NCBI GenBank assembly: GCA_016219175.1
Contig: JACRCD010000088.1
Location: 1-36,235 of the forward strand
Origin: Deltaproteobacteria bacterium
GTDB lineage: Bacteria > Desulfobacterota > Desulfobulbia > Desulfobulbales > SURF-16
Direction: 5' to 3'
Length of the DNA stretch: 36,235 nucleotides
Under the pieces are notes generated by a model, which searched no databases, had not been told where the DNA came from, and was given only the letters and a program-made list of their open reading frames with translations. The position numbers and the translations under genes were made by a program. Shown here piece by piece: positions 7,172 through 18,768 of the stretch. Within the stretch, counting starts at the first letter, position 1. The number at the start of each line of letters is the position of its first letter.

Positions 7172-7636
7172 ATGATTTCTCTCAATATCAACAGCAGAAA
7201 TTATCAGGTGGAAGTAGAAGATGACACCCCGCTGCTGTGGGTCATCCGGGAACATATCCAGCTCACCGGCACCAAGTTCGGCTGCGGCATCGGCGAGTGC
7301 GGGGCCTGCACCGTCCATATCGACGGGGAAGCCGTCTCCTCTTGTCAGGTCACGGCCAAGGAGTCGGCAGGCAAGAAAATCACCACCATAGAAGGGTTGG
7401 CGGAAAATGATGCCTTGAAGAATGCCTGGATCGAGGATGATGTGCCCCAGTGCGGTTACTGTCATTCCGGGCAGATCATGCAGGCCGCGGTGCTGCTGGC
7501 CAAAAACCCGCAGCCCTCCGACGGTGACATTGATGAGGCCATGGGCGCTAACCTCTGCCGCTGCGGCACCTACCAGCGCATTCGCCGGGCCGTGCATCGC
7601 GCCTCCGACTTAATGGGGCAGGGAGGCAAATCATGA
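7172..7636 (+). CDS. iorA: 2Fe-2S small subunit of a molybdenum hydroxylase (IorA-like)
   Basis: The product has 154 residues, the full length for this family. The plant-ferredoxin-type 2Fe-2S site is Cys38, Cys43, Cys46 and Cys58 ([16 protein letters not shown]). The second, helical 2Fe-2S site is Cys94, Cys97, Cys129 and Cys131 (QCGYCHSGQ and CRCGTY). The subunit carries electrons from the molybdenum centre of the partner subunit to an outside acceptor. It has no signal peptide of its own. A strong ribosome site (AAAGGAGG) lies eight bases before the start. The last codons overlap the large-subunit start in an ATGA, as expected for a 1:1 complex. The symbol follows isoquinoline 1-oxidoreductase, but the true substrate could be any aldehyde or N-heterocycle. 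Confidence 0.9.
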
Positions 7637-9813
7637 AACACATCATTAATATCAGCCGCCGCGATTTCTGTAAAGCCGGGGCTCTGTTCGGCGGCGGGCT
7701 GGTTCTCGGCTTTCATGTTGACGAAACCCATGCCGCCCCCGGTCAGTACACCGAAGCTCCCACCGTGTTTGCCCCCAATGCCTTTATCCGCATCGGCAGC
7801 GATGATACGGTAACCATCATCGTCAACAAGTCGGAAATGGGGCAGGGTGTCTATACCTCGCTGCCCATGCTCATTGCCGAGGAGCTTGAAGTGGACTGGC
7901 GGAAGATCCGCATTGAAGCCGCCCCGGTTGATGCGGCCTATAATCACACCCAGTGGGGAGTGCAGGGCACCGGCGGCAGCACCAGTATCAGGTCGTGCTG
8001 GGACCAGTTTCGCCAGGCCGGGGCCGCGGCCCGGCTGATGCTGGAAAAGGCGGCGGCCGTGGCCTGGAATGTCGCCCCTGACACCTGCCGGGCGGAAAAC
8101 GGCTTTGTTACCGACACGGCCAACAACAAACGGCTCTCTTTCGGCGAACTGGCCGCCGGGGCGGCCCGCCTGGAAGCGCCGCGGGATCCGCCTTTGAAAA
8201 AATCACATGAATTCAAGGTGCTGGGTAAATCGCGAAAACGGCTTGACACCCCGGACAAAACCAACGGCAGGGCGATTTTCGGCATCGATATCATGCTGCC
8301 CGGCCTGCTCACCGCGGTCGTCGCCCGGCCGCCCGTGTTCGGCGGCGCGGTCAAAAGTTTTGATGAGGCGGCCGCCAAAAAGATCGCCGGGGTCAAGGCT
8401 GTGGTGCGGATTGAGCGCGGCATTGCCGTGGTGGCCGATCATTTCTGGGCGGCCAGCCGGGGCCGGCAGGCCTTGCAGGTCAGCTGGGATGAGGGGCCGC
8501 TGGCTGGTCTGGACAGCGTTGAGCAGAAAAAACAATACGGGCAGCTGGCCGAACAGCCGGGGCTGATCGCGGCGCAACGGGGGGATGTGGCCTCGGCCCT
8601 GGCTGGCGCGGCCAAAAAAGTCGAGGCGGTCTATGATGTGCCCTATCTGGCCCATGCGCCCATGGAGCCCCTCAACTGCGTGGCGGATGTGCGGCCGGAC
8701 AGCTGTGAAATCTGGGTCGGCACCCAGCTGCAGACCTATGACCGGGATGCGGCGGCCGGGCTCACCGGTCTGCCGAAGGAAAAGGTGCAACTGCATACCA
8801 CCTATCTTGGCGGCGGCTTTGGCCGGCGGGCGGTGGGGGATTCCCATTTTGTCAAGGAAGCGGTGCAGATCTCCCAGGCGGTCAAGGCGCCGGTCAAGGT
8901 CATCTGGACCCGCGAGGATGATATTCAGGGCGGGTACTACCGGCCGGCCGCCTATAATAAATTGATCGCGGGCCTGGATGACAAGGGGGCTCCCCTGGCC
9001 CTGCGCCATACCGTGGTCAGCCAGTCCATTGCCAAGGGCACGCCCTTTGAGGGCGGCATGATCAAGGACGGCATCGATAACACAGCGGTGGAAGGGGTTG
9101 CCGATTCACCCTACGAGATCCCCCATCTGCTGGTTGATTATCATATGGCCCCCGCCGGGGTGCCCGTGCTCTGGTGGCGCTCGGTGGGCCACTCCTATAC
9201 GGCCTTTGTCAAGGAGGGGTTCATGGATGAGCTGGCCGTGACGGCCGGCCAGGATCCTTACGACTACAGGCGCAAACTGCTGACCGCCCATCCCCGGCTG
9301 CTGGGGGTGCTGGATCTGGCCGCCGAAAAGGCCGGCTGGGGCAAAGCGGCAAGCAAAGGAATTTCCCAGGGCATCGCCGTGCATGAATCCTTTGGCAGCT
9401 TCATTGCCCAGGTGGCGGAGGTCACCGTGGCAAAAAGCGGACGCATCAGGGTGCACAGGGTGGTCTGCGCCATTGACTGCGGCCAGGTGGTCAATCCGGA
9501 CACCATTGAGGCGCAGATGGAATCAGCCGTGGCCTTTGGCCTGACCGCCGCCCTTTATGGACGCATCACCTTTAAAAACGGCCGGGTGGAACAGAGTAAT
9601 TTTCATGATTATCCGCTGCTGCGCCTGCCTGAAATGCCCCGGGTGGAGGTGCATATCATGAAAAGCACGGCCCCGCCGGGCGGGGTGGGTGAGCCGGGGG
9701 TGCCGCCCGTTGCTCCGGCCGTGGCCAATGCGGTCCATGCCGCCACCGGCCTGCGGCTGCGGACCCTGCCCATGGATCCCGCCGCCTTGCAGGCCGCCGG
9801 GCTCAAGGGGTGA
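7633..9813 (+). CDS. iorB: Molybdopterin-binding large subunit of a xanthine-oxidase-family hydroxylase (IorB-like), Tat-exported
   Basis: The product has 726 residues. It opens with a twin-arginine signal (SRRDF, Arg9-Arg10) and a hydrophobic stretch ending near ETHAAPG, so the folded complex is probably exported with the small subunit carried along. The body is the aldehyde oxidase/xanthine dehydrogenase molybdopterin-binding fold with [24 protein letters not shown] and the C-terminal [10 protein letters not shown], where Glu687 is the expected base. This is the IorB-type, single-chain arrangement that lacks a separate FAD subunit. The electron acceptor is therefore likely a periplasmic cytochrome. 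XdhC and MocA follow directly, supplying cofactor maturation. The substrate cannot be read from the sequence. Confidence 0.9.
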
Positions 9814-9822
9814 TGATCCGTC

Positions 9823-10635
9823 ATGGATGATCTGCATCTTTACGAGGAAATAGTGCGGCTGAAAAAAGCTCGTCTGCCCGGCGCCCTGGCCACGATCGTC
9901 AAGGCCGTCGGCTCATCGCCCCGCAAGACCGGGGCCAAGATGCTGGTCTATGGAGACGGCGCCATCTCCGGCACCATCGGCGGCGGCAAGACGGAGGCGG
10001 AAACCATCGCCGCCGCGCTCCAGGTCATGGGCAGCGGCGCGCCGCGTTCCCTCTCCTTTGCCCTGACCGAAGAGCATGGCCACGTCTGCGGCGGCAATGT
10101 CACCATTTATCTTGAACCGGTCACTGTCTCGCCTGTCGTTTTCGTTGTGGGCGCGGGCCATGTTGGCCGGGCCGTGGCCCGGGCCGCCGGCGAGGCCGGC
10201 TTTCTTGTCACCCTGATCGACACGGCGGGCGGAAAAGCGGAGTTTGCCGCGGCTGACGAGGTGCGGCGCTGTGCAACCAGCGCTGAACTGACCACCCTGT
10301 TTCGTGACGCGCGGGCGGATGGCCACGCCTTTATTTTTATCAGTACCAGCGATCACCAGGAGGATTTTACCGCCGCCGCCGCTTCATTGGCCACCACGGC
10401 TGGTTATATCGGCGTGCTGGGCAGCGCCAGAAAGCGGCAGGCCATGGAGCTTTATCTTCAGGGAAAAGGGTTCGGCGGGGAGGATATCAAAAGGATCATC
10501 TCGCCGGCCGGCCTGGACATCAAGGCCGAAACCCCCGAGGAGATCGCGGTCAGTGTGGTGGCGCAGATGATTTTACACAGGAGGTCGGCCCATGCCGCCC
10601 ATTGCCGCGATCGTGCTGGCCGCGGGTCAGTCTAA
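9823..10635 (+). CDS. xdhC: XdhC/CoxI-family cofactor insertion protein
   Basis: The product has 270 residues. An N-terminal XdhC/CoxI domain ([38 protein letters not shown]) is followed by a Rossmann-type C-terminal domain starting with [13 protein letters not shown] at about 107 and a conserved [11 protein letters not shown]. Proteins of this family bind the molybdenum cofactor, support its sulfuration and hand it to xanthine-oxidase-type apoenzymes. The gene begins nine bases after the large-subunit stop. Its last 44 bases overlap the mocA start, so the final 15 residues (rich in H, R and A) are encoded over that start and are probably not functional. Family and role are secure; direct action on this enzyme is inferred from the operon. 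Confidence 0.88.
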
Positions 10636-11188
10636 AAGGATGGGGCGCAGCAAGCAGCTGCTGTCCTATGGCGGCAAACCCGTCATCCGTCACTGCCTTG
10701 ACGCCCTGCTGGCCGGCGGGCTTGAAAAGATTGTCGTGGTGCTGGGCTCGACCGGCGCCGCCATCGAGCCGGTTATTGGTAATCTGCCGGTAACCGTGGT
10801 CTGGAACAGGGCAGCGGCAAGCGACATGGCGGATTCCGTGCGCGCCGGCCTGGCAGCCCTGGCCGGGGATGTGGCCGGGGTCCTTGTCTGCCTGGCCGAT
10901 CATTTCCTGGTCAAGGTTGCGACCCTGCAAACCATCATGCAAGCCCATGCGGAGCATCCGGATAAAATTATCATCCCCGTCTGCCAGGGCAGAAAAGGGC
11001 ATCCCACCCTCTTTCCCCGCCCGGTGCTTGAAGAAATTACCACGCTCCCGACCCTGCGGCACATTATCAACAGTGAGAGCGGGCGGACCCTGCTGCTTGC
11101 GGTTGGTGATCCGGCCGTTACGCTGGACATGGACACCCCGGAGGATTTCCGGAGGATTGTGGCAGGCGGGAGTGCGGGAAAATGGTGA
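10592..11188 (+). CDS. mocA: MocA-like molybdenum cofactor cytidylyltransferase
   Basis: The product has 198 residues with the NTP-transferase fold. The nucleotide-binding loop is [17 protein letters not shown] at about residues 7-23. The C-terminal half has GRKGHPTLFPR and DMDTPEDF, typical of MocA. Where relatives commonly have GDQP, this protein has LADHF: the metal-binding aspartate is kept but the next residues differ. MocA attaches CMP to Mo-molybdopterin, giving the dinucleotide form used by xanthine-oxidase-family enzymes, which fits its place as the last gene of the operon. A GGAGG ribosome site lies inside the end of xdhC. The gene is convergent with the next minus-strand gene and 22 bases from it. 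Confidence 0.88.
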   Translation: MPPIAAIVLAAGQSKRMGRSKQLLSYGGKPVIRHCLDALLAGGLEKIVVVLGSTGAAIEPVIGNLPVTVVWNRAAASDMADSVRAGLAALAGDVAGVLVCLADHFLVKVATLQTIMQAHAEHPDKIIIPVCQGRKGHPTLFPRPVLEEITTLPTLRHIINSESGRTLLLAVGDPAVTLDMDTPEDFRRIVAGGSAGKW

Positions 11189-11210: not shown

Positions 11211-12248
11211 TTAGGAATATTCCGGATAATGCTCTTGCATGCATTGGGGGCAGACGCCGTGGCTGATGTCAGCCTGGGAGTGTCTGTGGATGTAAGAGTC
11301 GACCTGTTCCCATTCCCCTTTGTCATTACGGATTTTCTTACAGAATGAACAGAGGGGCAGTATGCCCTTCAGGGTTTTGATCTCCTTGAAAGCGCTTTGC
11401 AGTTCGCCAATGAGTTTTTCACGCTCCTGCTCTGTTTTTTTACGGACCTCGATTTCGGTCAGCAAATTTTTGTTGACGCTGTTCAGCTCCCTGAAGATCA
11501 GATTGTAGGGATGTTCGATGCCGGTGACAATGACTGCCTCATAAATGTAAAGAAAGGAAAAGATCTTGAAGTAGTGGCCCACCAGGTTGGGGAATCCGTA
11601 GTTGCTGAGGTAGAAGGTGAAGGCCAGTTCGGAAATGATGGTGCAGCATATCGACAGCATGAGCAGGGGAAAAACTCTTTTCTCAAATCTTTCCCTGTTG
11701 CGGATTAACAGGTACAGGCACGCCAGCAGGATGGCGCAGATGAGATATTCGCTGTTTTTCTTAAAAGGGGTCAGTCCGCTGCCTTCCACAAAACAGACGG
11801 GAAAGATTCGCCAATAAAAGATAGCGGCAATGAGCAGCGCGGTGACCACTCCATAGGCGGTCAGGACGAAGTAGGGCCTGAGCAGTTTATCTTTCTGCAG
11901 AAAGATAAAGGCCAGCAGCAGGGAGAGGCTTTCCAGGTAACGGGCCGCGATCCACAGCTGATTGGCGTAATAGTCGTAATCGGTGAATATGGACATGCCC
12001 TTGTAGGCGAGGGTGTGGAGCAGGTCGATGGCGCCGATGAAGAGATAGGCAAGGCCCACGAACAGCAGGTATGGGTTCTTGATATACTGACGGGAATGCC
12101 AGGCGATCATAAAAAGGGAGAAGGCGACCACAATGCTAAATATTTCGGCCAGGCTATGGAAAAGAAGATAGTTTTTCAGGCTGGTGAAATAGAGTCCCGT
12201 GCAAAGGGCGGCAACGAGGAAGTAACGGACTTTTGTCTCTGTCATCAT
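11211..12248 (-). CDS. MASE3 membrane sensor with C-terminal four-cysteine module, no output enzyme
   Basis: The product has 345 residues. The first 240 or so form a seven-helix MASE3 sensor (YLLFHSLAEIFSIVVAFSLF, GAIDLLHTLAYKGM, NQLWIAARYLES). A coiled coil follows (about 245-293). The last 50 residues form a compact module with CSFC (Cys300, Cys303), a KGEWEQV segment, SHG and CPQC (Cys333, Cys336). MASE3 is normally joined to kinase or diguanylate-cyclase domains, but none is present here. The stop directly follows the module, so the gene does not look truncated. The same module ends the sensor at 14699-16084, with 44 of 68 positions identical by eye. The module is likely a metal-binding or redox element, but this is inference. 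The start is ATG 12248; no strong ribosome site is visible. Confidence 0.85.
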   Translation of the reverse strand: MMTETKVRYFLVAALCTGLYFTSLKNYLLFHSLAEIFSIVVAFSLFMIAWHSRQYIKNPYLLFVGLAYLFIGAIDLLHTLAYKGMSIFTDYDYYANQLWIAARYLESLSLLLAFIFLQKDKLLRPYFVLTAYGVVTALLIAAIFYWRIFPVCFVEGSGLTPFKKNSEYLICAILLACLYLLIRNRERFEKRVFPLLMLSICCTIISELAFTFYLSNYGFPNLVGHYFKIFSFLYIYEAVIVTGIEHPYNLIFRELNSVNKNLLTEIEVRKKTEQEREKLIGELQSAFKEIKTLKGILPLCSFCKKIRNDKGEWEQVDSYIHRHSQADISHGVCPQCMQEHYPEYS

Positions 12249-12651
12249 AATGTCCGGCGGGGAGAATGGTCAGGCAAAATTATTATAAACACTCTTTGTC
12301 ATGAATGGCGCGATAAACGAGGGCTTGCGTTTCAAACCCTTATCCCCGCAAATTATCTTTTCCGAAGTTCACGCTGAAGTCAAGCCGAGATTGCGAGCTT
12401 CCGGGCCACGCCGCCCGGGCGTGACCCCCCCCTTGCCGTGTCCTTAATGCCGCAGCCAGGGGCCGGGCTGGGCAAAGGCTGATTCTCCCCATCCTCTTTG
12501 TCAAAATGGCAATGTTTTCTGCCAGTTTGGCAGGAAGCACAAGGTTGTTTCTTTGTAATTGCCCGTAATTGTTTAATTTGTTTCGGTGGCATGGAAATGG
12601 CATTAATGCCAGGCAAAGGCAAAATAAATAAATAACCCTAAGGAGGACGCC
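12249..12651. other. 403-base intergenic region between divergent genes
   Basis: No convincing gene is visible. The region holds a GC-rich inverted repeat (CACGCC at 12407-12412 and GGCGTG at 12418-12423), a small perfect inverted repeat CTGCCA/TGGCAG near 12519-12533, and a 12-bp palindrome GGCATTAATGCC at 12599-12610. A sigma-54-like site is listed separately. It must contain the promoters of both flanking genes, but I see no clear sigma-70 pair. Confidence 0.6.
12586..12603 (+). promoter_or_regulatory. Possible sigma-54 (-24/-12) promoter for the 73-aa protein
   Basis: The sequence GTGGCATGGAAATGGCAT has GG at 12588-12589 and GC at 12600-12601 with exactly ten bases between, as sigma-54 promoters need. 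The -24 block TGGCATG is close to the consensus TGGCACG. The -12 block TGGC departs from TTGC by one base. The expected start point near 12613 is about 40 bases before the ATG. No activator site was recognised. Confidence 0.3.
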
Positions 12652-12873
12652 ATGAATACAGATAGAGCACAGATTAAAACAAGAACACAGAACCGAGCGG
12701 GAATTAATGTTGCAGCCGGGGAGGAATATTCACGGGGAGCATTGGTAGCGGTAGGTGTTATCCCCACCTTGGCCGGATTGTGGTCAGGCGCCTGTCTTAT
12801 CAGCGCCATGGTGGCAAGCGGCGGCCCTTTGGCGCTGATAAAAAGCTGGTTCATGGCGGTCGGCGGTTTCTGA
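12652..12873 (+). CDS. Small membrane protein of unknown function
   Basis: This is a 73-residue protein with a strong ribosome site (AAGGAGG, five bases before the ATG), which makes the start firm. The first 30 residues are polar. The rest is hydrophobic and glycine-rich: VAVGVIPTLAGLW and SGACLISAMVASGG form one or two membrane helices, and the protein ends in WFMAVGGF. I recognise no named domain. Small proteins with this general pattern (a glycine-rich helix pair, then a short aromatic end) occur as hypothetical proteins in related bacteria, but I cannot assign a role. A large hairpin follows 14 bases after the stop, so the gene is probably a single transcription unit. Confidence 0.65.
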   Translation: MNTDRAQIKTRTQNRAGINVAAGEEYSRGALVAVGVIPTLAGLWSGACLISAMVASGGPLALIKSWFMAVGGF

Positions 12874-12887
12874 TCGGGTTTTGTTGC

Positions 12888-12980
12888 AGAAGCCAGAAGC
12901 CAGGAGACGACATTGAGCGGGAAATTCACCAGTTATGGGCATTCCCGTCTCTCCTGGATTCTGGCTTCTTGTTTTTCCCC
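12888..12980 (+). terminator. Long hairpin followed by a T-rich stretch
   Basis: The left arm at 12888-12909 (AGAAGCCAGAAGCCAGGAGA and on) pairs with the right arm at 12946-12969 (the complement reads AGAAGCCAGAATCCAGGAGA and on) with only a few mismatches. A 36-base loop separates the arms. The right arm is followed by TGTTTTTCCCC. This would terminate the 73-aa gene and lies directly after the stop of the convergent metallophosphoesterase gene, so it could serve both. The long arms are also compatible with a small inverted-repeat element. Confidence 0.55.
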
Positions 12981-14383
12981 TATTCTCCCTCCATCCCTCT
13001 TCTCAAGGTAATCAAGGTAATCTCCCCCGGACAATGAAAGCGGAGGGGTACGCTGGAAGCCCCGGCTCCCCTGCTCGTATACCCCGTCATCCCCCGGTAT
13101 TGCCAGTTGCCGGCCGCGGTAAAGCGCGGCGCCCTGCTGTTGGTCAGAACGGGCTTGCCGTCGGGCAAACAGATCTGGCCGCCGTGGGTATGGCCGCAGA
13201 GATAGAGATCGGCCCCATGCTCCGCCGCAGTTTGATAAGCCTCTGGGGAGTGGGCCAGAAAGATCGTGAAATCCTCTGCCCTCACATCCCGGAAGGCCTG
13301 TTCAGCATTGTGCGTCTTATAGTAGTGCGGGTCATCCACTCCCACCAGCCAGATTCGTTCTTCCCCTTTATCAATTCTCCATGAATCGTTGATAAGCATG
13401 ATGAGCCCGGCTTCCTCGAAATCAGGGGTCATTTCAATGCAGTCGTGATTGCCCAGTATGCCCAAGGCGCCGTGACGGCTCCGTATATGGGGCAGGAGAC
13501 GGCGCAGCTGCCGCATGCACGGCGCTATGGGGCCATAGGTTTGCATGCGGATATCGCCCCCCACCAGGCAGAGGTCAACCTCGATGTTCGTGAGTCTCCT
13601 GATTAACTCATCCGTCAGTCCGGCCAAACCGTCCAGATGCAGGTCCGTCAGCAGCAGCAGGCGAAAATGGTCAAAACGTTGCGGCAGGGAGGCAAAACGG
13701 AATGTTTTTTCTTCAAGCCGGATATCCAGGGTATTGCGCACCCCTTTTTCATAAAGGCCGGTTATCTTAAAAAACGAGGTGAGAAATAACTGGTTTGAAA
13801 GAAAGCTGGTCAGATTGCACAGTGCTTGCCAGCGGGCCAGCGGCACATGGCATGAACGCCATTCCCGCAAACGCACCGTTGAGTGGATCAGGCGCGGATA
13901 ACCATCCAACGGCGGACGGTAGAGGATATAATTCCAGAACAGGGAACCGCAGTGGGCGATGGGGATGAAGCACAGCAGAATCATTAAGGCCTGGCCGGCG
14001 CCGAGCGGCAGCACCCGGGCCAGGAAAAGAACGGGAAACAGGCACTCAAAGAGCTGGTCGAGAAAGACGATGGCCTTGCCGCTGGCAATATTGAGGCGGC
14101 GTTTGATGAAGCTGCTCAACAGGTCGCCGGCCATGGCCAGCAGGGCGGCGACCGCGCCGACCCACCAGGGCAGGCCGGAGAGAAGGAAAACCGCGGCCCC
14201 GCCCGGCAGGCTGACCAGGATGCCGCGGATGGTCTTGTGACTGCCGAAAATGGGCCGCCTGTCAAACCACAGCCTGCCGCCGTCAACCGGGTATCTGTAG
14301 CGGTTGCCCCAGATGAGATCCGCCAGCGGTGGGAAAAAATTGACACATAACAGCAAGGTAACAACCTGGATAATGACCGGCAC
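12980..14383 (-). CDS. Fusion of a CarS/DUF46-like membrane domain and a calcineurin-like metallophosphoesterase
   Basis: The product has 467 residues. The N-terminal 160 or so are a multi-helix membrane domain of the CDP-archaeol synthase (CarS)/DUF46 type, with PVDGG at 32-36, RPIFGSHKTIRG at 43-54 and GDLLSSFIKRR at 86-96. A linker with a few hydrophobic segments leads to a complete metallophosphoesterase: TDLHLD (Asp247, His249), GGDIR (Asp277), GNHD (Asn312, His313), AHSPE (His378) and GHTHGGQ (His398, His400). CarS-type enzymes activate lipid phosphates with CTP, and the phosphatase domain resembles YaeI/LpxH-type enzymes that hydrolyse phospholipid or nucleotide-lipid bonds. A role in lipid-head-group turnover at the inner membrane is therefore a reasonable inference. 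It is not established. Confidence 0.8.
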   Translation of the reverse strand: MPVIIQVVTLLLCVNFFPPLADLIWGNRYRYPVDGGRLWFDRRPIFGSHKTIRGILVSLPGGAAVFLLSGLPWWVGAVAALLAMAGDLLSSFIKRRLNIASGKAIVFLDQLFECLFPVLFLARVLPLGAGQALMILLCFIPIAHCGSLFWNYILYRPPLDGYPRLIHSTVRLREWRSCHVPLARWQALCNLTSFLSNQLFLTSFFKITGLYEKGVRNTLDIRLEEKTFRFASLPQRFDHFRLLLLTDLHLDGLAGLTDELIRRLTNIEVDLCLVGGDIRMQTYGPIAPCMRQLRRLLPHIRSRHGALGILGNHDCIEMTPDFEEAGLIMLINDSWRIDKGEERIWLVGVDDPHYYKTHNAEQAFRDVRAEDFTIFLAHSPEAYQTAAEHGADLYLCGHTHGGQICLPDGKPVLTNSRAPRFTAAGNWQYRGMTGYTSRGAGASSVPLRFHCPGEITLITLRRGMEGE

Positions 14384-14559
14384 GGGCAGGCTCCTTTTCG
14401 CATATCAAATCAAGATCGCTGCACGGTAATTGCGGCGTGGGATTTCTCAAATTATAGCAGATGAGCGGGGCTTACTGAATACCGTAAATGCCGGACCGGT
14501 AATTCCGTGAGGAACTTGCTCAGTGCTTGCGATGTCATAATATTATATGGCATGATATG

Positions 14560-14588
14560 TTGACAAGCAGCCTGGGGCAATGTAACCT
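14560..14588 (+). promoter_or_regulatory. Possible sigma-70 promoter for the following sensor gene
   Basis: TTGACA at 14560-14565 is followed after 17 bases by TAACCT at 14583-14588, which matches only three of six -10 positions. It lies in the 315-base gap (14384-14698) between divergent genes, just after an AT-rich palindromic stretch (TAATATTA near 14539). Apart from these signals I see nothing in the gap. Confidence 0.25.
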
Positions 14589-14698
14589 CCCGGCTTCTTA
14601 ATAATGAACCTCGCGGCATCCTTCAATGTTGCCTTGACGCTGATGTGGGACAACCTGCCGGTTTTGGCCTATGGAACAGAAAATTTTCCCCGGAAATT

Positions 14699-16084
14699 AT
14701 GTTTAATATTAATTATCTGCGAGTCTATGTCTTTCTGTCGTTAGCCGCGGTTCTTCTGCTGCCCTCCTATATTTATTTTTCCCTGTCGCCGCAATTCGCC
14801 AAGTTGATTGTCAAGAACGCCGAAAGAGAGGCCGAGCGTGTCACAAATCATCTGATCGCCATGTTTCTTGCCGATGAGCCGGACCTGTCCGACAATGGGG
14901 TGCTGGAGGAAATGACCCGCGCCGAGGAAAGAGTCATGCGTGATTTCCAGCTGGAGAAGCTCAAGCTCTTTTCCGCGAACGGCGAGGTTGTCTACTCTTC
15001 GGATAAAAAGGATATCGGCGCCAGGAACACGAACGGTTATTTTTCCGAGGTGGTCGCCAAGGGGAAGCCCTTCGCCAAGCTGGTGAAAAAGGGGAGGGAG
15101 TCACTGGAGGGGATGACGGTGCCGGTTGATGTTCTGGAAATTTATATGCCGGTGATGAGGGCGGGGAAATTCGTCGGCGCCTTTGAAATTTATTACGATG
15201 TCACCGAGGCCCAGGATACCCTCCACCGCTTGATGTCCCGCGTCTATGGCGTCCTCTTTCTTATTTCAGCCGGTCTGATGTGCGCCGTGGTTTTTATTTA
15301 TTTCCGGGCCAGCCGGAATATGGCTAAACAGCGCGAGCTGGATCAGGAAAAAGAGAGAAATTACCAGGCGGAGGCCATTCTCAACAATCTGCTTGAGCTG
15401 TCGCTGGTCACTATTTCTCTGCAGGAAATCCTGGAGATTTTCATTCACCAGATAAGCTCCATTCCCTGGCTTGATGTTGAGCCCAGGGGCATGGTTTTTC
15501 TGGTCGGCGCGGATCGGGCGGTGCTGGAACTGGCAGCGCAGCGGGACATGGATGAAGCGACGCTGTCTCGATGCGCGCGGGTAGCGGTCGGCACCTGCGT
15601 CTGCGGCCGCGCGGCCGCCACGGGTGAATGCCATTTTTCCAGCTGCACCGGGGAATTCCATGACATCATCTACGAACCCATGGCCCCGCATGGTCATTAC
15701 TGCGTGCCGATTCTTTCCTCAAAAGGGGTGGTGCAGGGGGTCATTACCCTCTATACCCGGGCAGGGGTGAAACGGAATCAAAGGGCGGAGGCGACCCTGC
15801 TGGCCGCGGCCAATCTGCTGGCCGCCATCATTGAACGCAAAAGGGCGGAAGAGGACCGGGAAAAGCTGATCAGCGATCTGCAGCAGGCCTTGACAGAGAT
15901 CAAGGCGCTGCAGGGCATCATCCCCATCTGCTCGTTCTGCAAGCAGATCCGGGATGACAAGGGCTACTGGCAGCAGGTTGAGCAGTATATCGGCAAACAC
16001 TCGGCGGCGCAGTTCAGTCACAGTATCTGTCCGCAGTGCATGAAGGAAAAATATCCGGAACTGGCGAAAGAAGATCCCGCCTAA
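14699..16084 (+). CDS. Membrane sensor with periplasmic domain, GAF domain and C-terminal four-cysteine module
   Basis: With the ATG at 14699 the product has 461 residues. An ATG at 14645 would add 18 but would place polar residues before the first membrane helix. In order: one membrane helix (VFLSLAAVLLLPSYIYF), a periplasmic cache-like domain of about 150 residues, a second helix (GVLFLISAGLMCAVVFIYF), a coiled coil, a GAF domain with several cysteines (GTCVCGRAAATGE, SSCTGEFHD, HYCVPI), a second coiled coil and the C-terminal module with Cys411, Cys414, Cys444 and Cys447. There is no kinase, cyclase or receiver. The coiled-coil-plus-module end is shared with the MASE3 sensor at 11211-12248. 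The signal and partner are unknown. Confidence 0.85.
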   Translation: MFNINYLRVYVFLSLAAVLLLPSYIYFSLSPQFAKLIVKNAEREAERVTNHLIAMFLADEPDLSDNGVLEEMTRAEERVMRDFQLEKLKLFSANGEVVYSSDKKDIGARNTNGYFSEVVAKGKPFAKLVKKGRESLEGMTVPVDVLEIYMPVMRAGKFVGAFEIYYDVTEAQDTLHRLMSRVYGVLFLISAGLMCAVVFIYFRASRNMAKQRELDQEKERNYQAEAILNNLLELSLVTISLQEILEIFIHQISSIPWLDVEPRGMVFLVGADRAVLELAAQRDMDEATLSRCARVAVGTCVCGRAAATGECHFSSCTGEFHDIIYEPMAPHGHYCVPILSSKGVVQGVITLYTRAGVKRNQRAEATLLAAANLLAAIIERKRAEEDREKLISDLQQALTEIKALQGIIPICSFCKQIRDDKGYWQQVEQYIGKHSAAQFSHSICPQCMKEKYPELAKEDPA

Positions 16085-16129: not shown

Positions 16130-16945
16130 TTAACGGGCCACCACAAAGGCATCGGGATAGCCGTTGCTGTTGAAGACCTCTTCCATGCTGCGCGCGGCAG
16201 TGAGGGTTGTCCCCGCGCGCACCTGGACCCGGTAGAAAAGTTTGTCACCCCGGTCAAACTCGGCAATCACGGCTGTTTTGCCCTGCTGTTTCATCTTGTC
16301 CCGCAGATTATCCGCGTTGAGCCGGCTGGTGAAAGAGCCGATCTGCACATAAAAATCACCTTTCTGGAAATCCTCGTGGGGCAGGAAACGATCGACCTCC
16401 CTGCCTCCCTGCCGGTACGTCCGCGCCTCGCCAAGGGCGGTCAGTTTCACCGTTGCCGTGCCGTTGTCGACAATATCCAGCTGTTGCGCCACTGTCAGGC
16501 TGAGGTCAATGATTCTGCCCTTGACAAAGGGGCCGCGGTCATTGATCCTCACCACCATCTCCTTGCCGTTTTCCTGATTCCGCACCAGCACCATGGTGTG
16601 CATGGGCAGGGTTTTATGGGCCGCGGTCTGCCCATACATGTCGTAGGTCTCTCCGTTGCAGGTCTTGCGGCCATGGAACTGACCGCCATACCAGGAGGCA
16701 ATGCCCTGTTCCTCGTAGCCTTCCGCGCTTGGCAGGGGGTAGTAGGTTTTGCCCATGATTTTGTATGGCCGCTGGGTGGGGGGAATGTAGCCCGGAACGG
16801 CGGGGGTGATGCGGGGCGGAACAGACTCCGGCGCCGGAACTTCCTTGGTCGCGCAGCCATGGAGAAAAAGGATGAGAAGCAGCAGGGGACAGATGCATAA
16901 TCCCGGCCGGCCGGGTCTCTTGATTAAGGAAGACAATGACTTCAT
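16130..16945 (-). CDS. rlpA: RlpA-family septal ring lipoprotein with SPOR domain
   Basis: The product has 271 residues. It has a lipoprotein signal with lipobox LHGC and lipidated Cys31. The double-psi beta-barrel domain (about 75-165) shows GIASWYGGQFHGRKTCNGE, AAHKTLPMH and RINDRGPF. These carry the acidic residues and histidine used by RlpA enzymes, which cleave glycan strands lacking stem peptides during cell separation. The SPOR domain at about 195-270 (FYVQIGSFTSRLNADNL) binds denuded septal glycan. The ATG overlaps the stop of the cytochrome gene by four bases, so the two are translated together although their roles seem unrelated. The family is certain; lytic activity is inferred. 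Confidence 0.92.
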   Translation of the reverse strand: MKSLSSLIKRPGRPGLCICPLLLLILFLHGCATKEVPAPESVPPRITPAVPGYIPPTQRPYKIMGKTYYPLPSAEGYEEQGIASWYGGQFHGRKTCNGETYDMYGQTAAHKTLPMHTMVLVRNQENGKEMVVRINDRGPFVKGRIIDLSLTVAQQLDIVDNGTATVKLTALGEARTYRQGGREVDRFLPHEDFQKGDFYVQIGSFTSRLNADNLRDKMKQQGKTAVIAEFDRGDKLFYRVQVRAGTTLTAARSMEEVFNSNGYPDAFVVAR

Positions 16946-18447
16946 GGCGTTGGGGGAATTTCCTGATTCTTTTCCAGATTGAGGGGGGCTTTGACCAGGT
17001 CAGTGTTTTCGCGCAGCCGGTCCGTGAAAAAGGCGCCGGCCTTGCCGATGGTATGAGGCGTATAGGGCCGCAGTCCTTGTTCCCGCCCGCTTTGCGGGGC
17101 AATGGCATCAAAAACGGTTTCCCCCTTCTCGTTGACATAGCTCAGGTGCAGGTCGAGCAGGGGGCGGCAGACCCGCAGCATGCCCCTGTCGTCCTTGCAG
17201 ATGATGGGGAACTCCCAGCGCCGCAGTTCGTAACCTTTCAGCCACAGGCCGGAATAGAGTTCGTCCGTGATCTTGTCGGTCATGAAGACGTATTCATAGG
17301 AGTCGTCCCCGTACAGGGCGTTGATCAGCTGCTCTTCCACCTCGGAACTGCCCTGGATGTACAGGGCGCTCCACGGTTCGAAATCCTTGGTGTCAAGGCG
17401 CAGGAGATGCGTGCCTTCATCGCTGAAACTCCACTGGGCATGGCAGACGGCGCAGTCCGCCTTGTTTTGGTAGCGTTCATGGGCCGGGTGGCTGAGGCGG
17501 GGCACGGCTCCGGTGTTTCTGTCGCCGAGACGGCGGGTCAGGATAAGGGAGCCGTTTTCCTCCTTGAGATTATCCAGGGGGATTTTGTCCCCCGGCTGCC
17601 AGAGATGGCAGGAGGCGCAGGTGATTTTTTCATCCGTCATTCCCATCAGCTCCCTGCCTGAATGGCAGTCGACACAGGAGAGTCCGGCCTGCTGGTGCAC
17701 GTCCGGGGCCAGCTGGTGGTATTCCACCCCGTAGGGCCGGGCTGCATTCCCTTCCTTCGGGTAGGGGGTGCGGTAGTCCCAGTGATAATCATGTTCGAAG
17801 CGGCCGTGGTAATCGGCGCCGACGAAGTTAGCGTAGTGGCAGTGCAGGCACTGGCTGTCGGGAACGGTTTTGACAAAGGCATGGGAAACGGCCTTGCCGT
17901 TGCCGAACTCCATATGGCAGGCGGCGCACCCCGTGCCGTGTCTCGTTTCCGCATACCGGTCGCCCTCGTAGTAGAGATGACAGCGCAGGCAGCGGCGTCT
18001 GAGCAGATCGTCAGCCAGCTCAAGGGGTGAGCCGACCTCCTCATGCTGGGGGATATCAAGCAGGGATTCCACCTCCCCGCCGGCGCCAAAGGCCAGGCGC
18101 ACAGCGTTGACCTCTTGTTTCAGGGTGAAATGGAGGGAGTTTCTGACCTTGGCCAGCTGGCCGGCATGGCAGGCGCCGCAGTTTTTTTCCATATGCCGCG
18201 GATGGGCGGGCTGCTTCACCAGACCCTGATGGGCTGTTTCAGCGGAAGGGGCCGCATCCTGTCCTGCGTGGCAGGTGGTGCAGGGGATCGCCTCATGCCT
18301 GGCATCCAGGGCAACTTCATGACAGTGGCGGCAGGAAAATTCCCGGGCCGCGGCGGCCCGGGCGGGCGGCTGACTTTTTTGCTCGGGCGGATCGGGGTTG
18401 CAGCCGGCGCACAAAAAAAGCAGGCAGATAAGCAGACAAGAAATCAT
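16942..18447 (-). CDS. Nonaheme c-type cytochrome lipoprotein
   Basis: From the ATG at 18447 the product has 501 residues. It begins MISCLLICLLFLCAGCNPD, a lipoprotein signal with lipobox CAGC. Nine CXXCH heme sites follow: CRHCH, CTTCH, CGACH, CRHLH-like sites excluded, then CLRCH, CAACH, CLHCH, CVDCH, CASCH and CAVCH. All lie in the first two thirds. The last 170 residues have no heme site and end with a TPHTIGKAG segment. In related multiheme proteins such a segment often precedes one more CXXCH, so a terminal heme may have been lost. The protein would carry electrons at the periplasmic face. A longer open frame exists upstream to 18696, but it runs through a repeat element and is not used. 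No ribosome site precedes the ATG, which sits directly at the element's edge. Confidence 0.85.
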   Translation of the reverse strand: MISCLLICLLFLCAGCNPDPPEQKSQPPARAAAAREFSCRHCHEVALDARHEAIPCTTCHAGQDAAPSAETAHQGLVKQPAHPRHMEKNCGACHAGQLAKVRNSLHFTLKQEVNAVRLAFGAGGEVESLLDIPQHEEVGSPLELADDLLRRRCLRCHLYYEGDRYAETRHGTGCAACHMEFGNGKAVSHAFVKTVPDSQCLHCHYANFVGADYHGRFEHDYHWDYRTPYPKEGNAARPYGVEYHQLAPDVHQQAGLSCVDCHSGRELMGMTDEKITCASCHLWQPGDKIPLDNLKEENGSLILTRRLGDRNTGAVPRLSHPAHERYQNKADCAVCHAQWSFSDEGTHLLRLDTKDFEPWSALYIQGSSEVEEQLINALYGDDSYEYVFMTDKITDELYSGLWLKGYELRRWEFPIICKDDRGMLRVCRPLLDLHLSYVNEKGETVFDAIAPQSGREQGLRPYTPHTIGKAGAFFTDRLRENTDLVKAPLNLEKNQEIPPTP

Positions 18448-18609
18448 GATGGCGTCGTAAAAAGTCCGATCTACTGCGTTGTAGGTTTTTGACAGGGACT
18501 CGACATACCGTATGTATAGTCGAGCCCCTGTCAAAAACACTACGCCTTGTATATCAAACTTTTTACTTAGCCATCTGGGAGCTGCGAGGTGACTTTTTAC
18601 GAGATCATC
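18448..18609. repeat. 162-bp MITE-like inverted-repeat element
   Basis: The ends match as imperfect inverted repeats of 19 bases: GATGGCGTCGTAAAAAGTC on the left, and the complement of the right end reads GATGATCTCGTAAAAAGTC. A second, inner inverted repeat has arms with GTTTTTGACAGGG and CCCTGTCAAAAAC around a short central part, giving a long hairpin. There is no coding capacity. A 36-base partial copy lies at 16091-16126. Dispersed elements of this kind are frequent in Desulfobacterota. This copy separates the cytochrome gene from whatever leader it once had. The rest of the gap, 18610-18768, holds nothing I recognise. Confidence 0.75.
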
Positions 18610-18768
18610 AATCATGAGAAAAGATAACCTGAAAGTGGGAAAGAGTGCAAAAAAAAAGTGGCCGGGAGGCTTTGCCGGCCGCAGGGAATCCATCATGGAG
18701 TATGCGATAAGTCAGTCCCGGCGGGCATGATCGCCTTCAGTCCAACCACCTGAAAACCTCTCTTTTTT

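Follow-up and report, generated by a model that had tools for sequence, protein, structure and literature searches.

In receiver-GGDEF enzymes such as DgcR and WspR, the linkers between the KP motif of the receiver and the effector vary in steps of seven residues and carry an axxdexx coiled-coil repeat (PMC8041772), and in the PAS/LOV coiled-coil kinase YF1, kinase control depends on the heptad (PMC6798134). HalOD2, described from a small number of halobacteria, contains a first part predicted to be HalX-like, followed by two CxxC motifs 20–25 residues apart (PMC5847659). Here we describe a module, a short predicted coiled coil ending in a four-cysteine (Cys4) finger, that is shared by the C-terminal ends of two sensor proteins encoded in a 36,235-nucleotide stretch of a Deltaproteobacteria bacterium genome (contig JACRCD010000088.1; this whole stretch is called the window below). 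The module proteins resemble receiver-GGDEF cyclases and YF1 in their seven-step linkers, but differ from DgcR, WspR and YF1 in having no catalytic domain, the putative effector being a finger of about 45 residues. With HalOD2, the module has in common two CxxC motifs and its putative use as a response-regulator output; compared by description, its Cys pairs are separated by 29 residues in both window proteins instead of 20–25. A modular effector that ends a signalling coil is of a known kind, whereas a Cys4-finger effector spread across many phyla and many inputs is new. We propose, with moderate confidence, that the finger, very probably metal-bound, is itself the output domain carried on the coiled coil and that it probably docks a conserved partner.

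Two window proteins share a C-terminal four-cysteine module

The first gene (positions 11211..12248, minus strand), recognized from its open frame, translation and Pfam matches, runs from 12248 to 11211, the plus-strand reading of the same frame containing stops. It encodes a kinase-less protein of 345 residues, which consists of a MASE3 integral-membrane sensor domain (residues 23–247; 11508..12182, minus strand; PF17159, expectation value (E) 1.1e-91), a linker predicted to be a coiled coil from its hydrophobic pattern, the finger spacing and a modelled helix (residues ~268–289; 11382..11447, minus strand), and the C-terminal four-cysteine finger (residues ~298–343, first Cys at 300; 11220..11357, minus strand), which was delimited by conserved columns and by an AlphaFold2 model with a mean predicted local distance difference test score (pLDDT) of 89.7. 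The second gene (14699..16084, plus strand), identified by translation and Pfam, encodes a likewise kinase-less protein of 461 residues. The stretch enclosed by its two hydrophobic segments (residues ~31–177; 14789..15229, plus strand; delimited by hydropathy) is probably periplasmic and Cache-like at best, its match to dCache_3 (E 0.0038) falling under the curated cut-off. It is followed by a GAF domain (residues 240–379; 15416..15835, plus strand; PF13185, E 5.1e-8), a presumed coiled-coil linker (residues ~379–400; 15833..15898, plus strand) and the finger (residues ~409–454, first Cys at 411; 15923..16060, plus strand), the last placed by alignment and conserved columns. The linkers of both proteins are in the phase typical of PAS domains ('D-I-T-E-R-K'), positions −32 to −30 relative to the first Cys being VRK or, in the GAF protein, ERK, whose residues are common at these offsets. 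Because the GAF domain lies downstream of a strong hydrophobic segment (residues 178–205), it should be cytoplasmic; a marginal segment (residues 231–249) overlaps its start. An earlier note on this DNA, made from the sequence by eye, had called the GAF domain periplasmic, which must be corrected in that the periplasmic part is another domain.

The two C-terminal ends aligned without gaps, with 44 of 68 positions identical and a score of 281, compared with a maximum of 59 when one sequence was shuffled 1000 times, and CSFC, KGxW, SH and CPQC were present in both. The gene positions, the common end and the count of identities given in the earlier note were thus reproduced. Its statement that neither protein carries a kinase, cyclase or receiver also held, no such domain being listed for either protein in Pfam or NCBIfam. 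With no HisKA/HATPase_c or GGDEF domain, neither protein was found to belong to the histidine kinases or diguanylate cyclases, and the NCBIfam kinase models that matched them did so through MASE3 (residues 18–278, far under the cut-off) or weakly (AtoS, 0.1).

Receivers are joined to the finger in steps of seven residues

The distance between input and finger was determined for 49 receivers standing directly before the module, counting from the conserved Lys (anchored by profile) to the finger's first Cys; 15 receivers with a distance of 90 residues or more and one with a gap at the Lys column were left out. The observed distances were 34 (3 receivers), 41 (2), 48 (19), 55 (11) and 62 (1), and, for receivers with a 'RYAIER'-type helix 5, 42 (7) and 49 (4). 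Thus, 47 of the 49 fall on two ladders of seven-residue steps. For the 38 receivers without the RYAIER-type helix, chi-squared was 201 at a step of seven versus 20 to 108 at steps of 4, 5, 6, 8, 9, 10 and 11, and, after like sequences had been collapsed to 30 receivers, 153 versus 10 to 68 for the other steps. As a control, the length of the tail behind the finger was flat modulo 7 (n = 245, chi-squared 3.9). The receivers keep the phospho-accepting Asp in 63 of 65 cases and the Lys in 61 of 65, and in an AlphaFold2 model of a receiver-module protein of the source genome (mean pLDDT 90.5), helix 5 continues without a break as far as residue 140, eleven short of the first Cys. As judged from sequence, the helix that joins receivers to the finger comes in quantised lengths, which is newly observed. 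Since the spacing follows a heptad rule, the finger appears to be held in a defined rotational phase relative to the input. Such a phase is a requirement if the input drives the finger and, together with the exchange of outputs among MASE3 proteins described below, is the strongest evidence for the module as an output.

In the linker helix, hydrophobic residues occupy −21 (70%), −20 (75%), −17 (94%), −14 (87%) and −13 (91%) before the first Cys and form two overlapping faces. This pattern resembles the axxdexx repeat of receiver-GGDEF enzymes (PMC8041772), a likeness limited by the upstream a position (−24), which is hydrophobic in only 30%. For PAS domains, the count to the first Cys started at the D of their D-I-T end motif, with anchors that were partly regex-based and with seeds in which the motif preceded that Cys by 15 to 80 residues; of 97 matches, 10 were unmeasured. 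The distance was 35 in 71 of the remaining 87, other values on the ladder being 21 (2), 28 (1), 42 (1) and 49 (1, anchor doubtful). Among ten distinct lengths, six were in one class, the sole count that favours seven. The MASE3-to-finger distance was 53 five times and 46 once (n = 6). Hence the seven-step linker that marks coiled-coil-driven effectors was found for the receivers, and the PAS step rests on few cases.

The module takes the place of kinase or GGDEF domains in MASE3 proteins

To compare outputs behind one input, we drew on the 57 MASE3 matches that 96 genomes of the order contained and took 30 of them regardless of what follows MASE3, the window gene included. HisKA was found in 13 of the 30 proteins, HisKA_2 in 1, HisKA_3 in 1, GGDEF in 4 and the module in 5 (L124, L128, L129, L134 and L135), outputs being undercounted in that 14 of these frames continue beyond the end of the fetched DNA. 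L135 and L121 are one gene, which is probably also among the four encoding GGDEF-bearing proteins, and L125, in which MASE3 and the module lie in different frames, was left out of the MASE3-module count. By this comparison of sequences, the module is seen to occupy the place held by a kinase or GGDEF domain in other MASE3 proteins.

The position of the module at the end of whole proteins agreed with this. We collected 121 proteins, 80 from named records and 41 from the source genome and its relatives, with redundancy kept (the modules of L058 and L117 are identical), and found a tail of 30 residues or fewer behind the module in 115 of them, including the two window proteins. Their Pfam inputs comprised PAS, receivers (7 + 14 + 17 proteins), HAMP, CHASE, MASE3 and Cache types, and further Tll0287-like, VUPS, GAF and periplasmic binding domains and others. 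HATPase_c, HisKA, EAL, HD-GYP and the MCP signalling domain were absent from the families listed for the 121 proteins (three single-member families lie outside those listed); HisKA_7TM and 4HB_MCP_1, found once each, are sensor regions. GGDEF occurred in a single protein, taken by its tail to be L121. The interpretation of these proteins as truncated kinases, and the condition raised in the earlier note that a known output always follows the module, are both ruled out by the 115 proteins that stop shortly past it.

Conservation and predicted fold of the finger

In 118 aligned modules, Cys22, Cys25 and Cys58 were kept in all and Cys55 in 117, and other positions were kept nearly as strictly (His52, Lys26 and Tyr41 in 117 each, Arg29 in 116 and Trp35 in 114), which suggests, at the level of sequence, that this polar conservation beyond the cysteines marks a conserved contact surface. 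Among 254 distinct copies (sequence E ≤ 1e-10, a limit that would miss far-diverged copies), 252 kept both cysteine pairs, the two exceptions being one Cys-to-Arg replacement and one copy cut off by the locus end. This count is to be read with the facts that 83 of 277 raw matches came from loci L016–L095, fetched with a pattern demanding the first Cys pair, and that it omits most MASE3 loci and those retrieved for ClpX, DksA and the free-standing fingers. The earlier note had named a module found in many output-less sensors with all four cysteines kept as support for an output or docking role, and loss of the cysteines in homologues as the contrary outcome; the 252 copies and the near-terminal position agree with the former.

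An AlphaFold2 model of a window module, computed with the 118-row alignment, had a mean pLDDT of 89.7 and a predicted template-modelling score of 0.62. It consisted of helix 2–11, strands 27–29 and 35–37, helix 38–46 and helix 56–62. The predicted order of a knuckle (Cys22/25), a hairpin and Cys55/58 at the start of helix 56–62 fits a treble clef with helix 38–46 as an extra, with no significant fold match in the PDB. Metal binding fits the CxxC/CxxC pairs and the predicted secondary structure, and the module very probably contains a metal-bound Cys4 finger of treble-clef-like layout, zinc being the most likely metal.

Library searches and related fingers

In the two window proteins, the sole Pfam or NCBIfam match that reached the finger was to a Leptospira family (E 0.12). 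Thirteen module pieces searched against Pfam gave weak matches, DUF3039 being the commonest (10 of 13, best 0.0027), and 118 pieces searched against NCBIfam gave three single matches (best 0.0033). A profile search of PDB sequences gave a best E of 0.016 over 25 residues, which was judged to be due to chance. PADLOC returned two weak matches, none to the finger, while a search of plasmids returned one weak place and that of phages no matches. No description of the module was found in Pfam, NCBIfam, the PDB or the open-licence literature of PubMed Central (PMC). In terms of sequence comparison, the module is a domain of wide distribution that nothing in Pfam, NCBIfam or the PDB matches convincingly.

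The C4 zinc finger of ClpX, an ATPase, resembles the module in the CSFC knuckle and the second CxxC but has 11 residues fewer between its Cys pairs. Only one of 13 modules matched its family (PF06689; E 0.052, under the cut-off), and profile comparison gave a weak local match (54% probability); with no Pfam match above the cut-off and this profile probability, membership was rejected. The DksA/TraR C4 finger (PF01258) was likewise rejected, with 6.9% probability over 12 columns. Homology was evident for free-standing fingers of about 60 residues with the pattern ICCxC..W..SHGYCPxCY (97.7% profile-profile probability), which differ from the module proteins in having no sensor domain and in being basic on average. 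Of 58 genomes of the order, 24 contain them, and the one in the source genome lies at L014 1447-1650 (contig C26), minus strand. In 16 of 30 fetched loci (L202–L231), the gene for the free-standing finger stands between murD and murG, a slot usually taken by ftsW. No description of this murD-murG finger was found in the open-licence PMC literature.

Proposed mode of action and alternative explanations

The near-terminal site and the seven-step rod suggest that the finger passes the signal on. In the proposed mechanism, the module would act as a transmitter domain, a short coiled coil ending in the Cys4 finger. Inputs such as MASE3, Cache, CHASE, PAS, GAF and receivers would shift the register or twist of a presumably dimeric coil, in a register switch of the sort found in receiver-GGDEF enzymes and PAS kinases. 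The change in the coil would re-orient the two fingers, which, probably with metal bound, may in turn bind a conserved partner protein or let go of it. Of the role suggested in the earlier note, that of an output serving as a metal- or redox-linked docking site, the output is supported by the near-terminal position, the MASE3 exchange and the quantised linker, and a metal would fit the CxxC/CxxC pairs; the redox part found no support.

Several observations weigh against the finger as a docking output. In a neighbour survey of 121 loci (flanks of 1.5 to 5 kb, shorter where a contig stopped), two-component-like proteins, a cluster named from one member and counted with no background rate, were found near the module gene in 44 loci, and immediately next to it in the same orientation in 20 of 116. 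Beyond these, no cluster occurred in more than 4 of the 121 loci, by which a dedicated neighbour gene within these flanks was rejected and the common partner suggested in the earlier note was not encountered. Long tails follow the module in six of the 121 proteins. Those of L009, L104 and L108 are a domain of about 110 residues (SpoIIAA-like in two, weakly and below the cut-off with E 0.007–0.009, the third being similar by reading), those of L051 and L086, from one Anaerolineae genome, are winged-helix-like over about 65 residues (weak, under the cut-off), and the sixth is a GGDEF-like domain. A fold search of the PDB with the model, by Foldseek and a second aligner, gave nothing significant. 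As for the linkers, two receivers are off the ladder (56 and 58), one of the two at distance 41 (L191) contains a proline in its linker, so that its fit may be accidental, and kinship among the receivers was only partly removed. PAS distances off the ladder were 74 (7), 46 (1), 207 (1) and 26 (1, misanchored); at a distance of 168 (1), another domain lies in between. As one length dominates, the PAS chi-squared was higher at steps of 9, 10 and 11 than at seven, and the constant distance of 35 may come from the spread of one PAS-module cassette. PAS-to-H-box distances in kinases, a small comparison, were multiples of seven in 6 of 10.

The main rival is a nucleic-acid-binding output comparable to HalOD2, in which the coil switch would let the two fingers bind DNA or RNA. 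It draws on the prediction that HalOD2, a halobacterial receiver output with two CxxC motifs, binds DNA or RNA (PMC5847659), on the winged-helix-like tail behind the finger in two copies of one Anaerolineae genome, and on the basic charge of the homologous free-standing fingers (mean +3.9, n = 29). The sensor-borne fingers, however, have a mean net charge of −1.4 (n = 118), and 62 of the 121 proteins contain transmembrane-like segments; because of these two properties we favour protein docking and regard nucleic-acid binding as unlikely.

Still less probable is that the module merely caps and dimerises the coil, the proteins being decoys that pair with kinases or cyclases having like inputs. 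The use of MASE3 with kinase, GGDEF and module alike would be in line with such pairing, and a small end domain could stabilise a coil. Nevertheless, many polar positions are kept across phyla, presumably more than a cap should need, and the receiver linker is quantised right up to the finger. Finally, the view that the four cysteines provide a further input, acting as a C-terminal thiol or metal sensor while the output lies elsewhere, is the least credible. CxxC pairs can be redox-active and many record titles among the best 80 of at least 581 places name sulphate reducers, whereas the receiver-module and MASE3-module proteins list no other known output, one GGDEF apart, the module stands where other MASE3 proteins carry a kinase or GGDEF, and several non-cysteine positions are conserved as strongly as the cysteines.

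Returning to the finger as a docking output, we tentatively extend it, as a possibility that we would not yet rely on, to a third common sensor output beside kinase and cyclase: up to about 16 unrelated sensors and receivers per genome might feed one finger through the register-switching coil and thereby reach a single partner across phyla, for example in the transcription, proteolysis or cell-wall machinery. Many seemingly output-less sensors and receivers may have an output absent from the libraries searched. Sequence leads to the predictions of a bound metal, a dimer and a heptad dependence of linker insertions, and the finger could serve as a single bait with which to catch what many orphan sensors signal to. 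A common partner would open up a layer of signalling in sulphate reducers, Nitrospira, Chloroflexi and other groups.

Occurrence of the module and neighbouring genes

The source genome contains 13 module matches and one short free-standing relative. The module was found in 18 of 19 genomes (the source genome and its relatives; up to 17 matches each), in 89 of 198 genomes across the phylum (up to 16 each) and at no fewer than 581 confirmed places in named genomes. The best 80 of these at least 581 places are, by record title, mostly Desulfo- and Deltaproteobacteria records, the other titles among them being Verrucomicrobia, Spirochaetes, Ignavibacteriae, Chloroflexi/Anaerolineae, Calditrichaeota, Lentisphaerae, Nitrospira, Acidobacteria, Cloacimonadota and others. 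Twelve named genomes, picked as module-bearing, had 1 to 12 matches each.

In an Ignavibacteriae record (L184), about 15 kb of DNA encode four module proteins, which range in length from 548 to 1197 residues, accompanied by two short frames (53 and 137 residues) with module pieces that look like remains of duplication. A Calditrichaeota record (L185) contains one receiver protein with two modules in tandem. In the window, genes read as a molybdenum-hydroxylase large subunit, an XdhC-like and a MobA-like protein (7633-11188, plus strand) adjoin the MASE3 gene, and a long frame with many CxxCH motifs (16942-18696, minus strand) is, also by reading, likely to encode a multihaem cytochrome.

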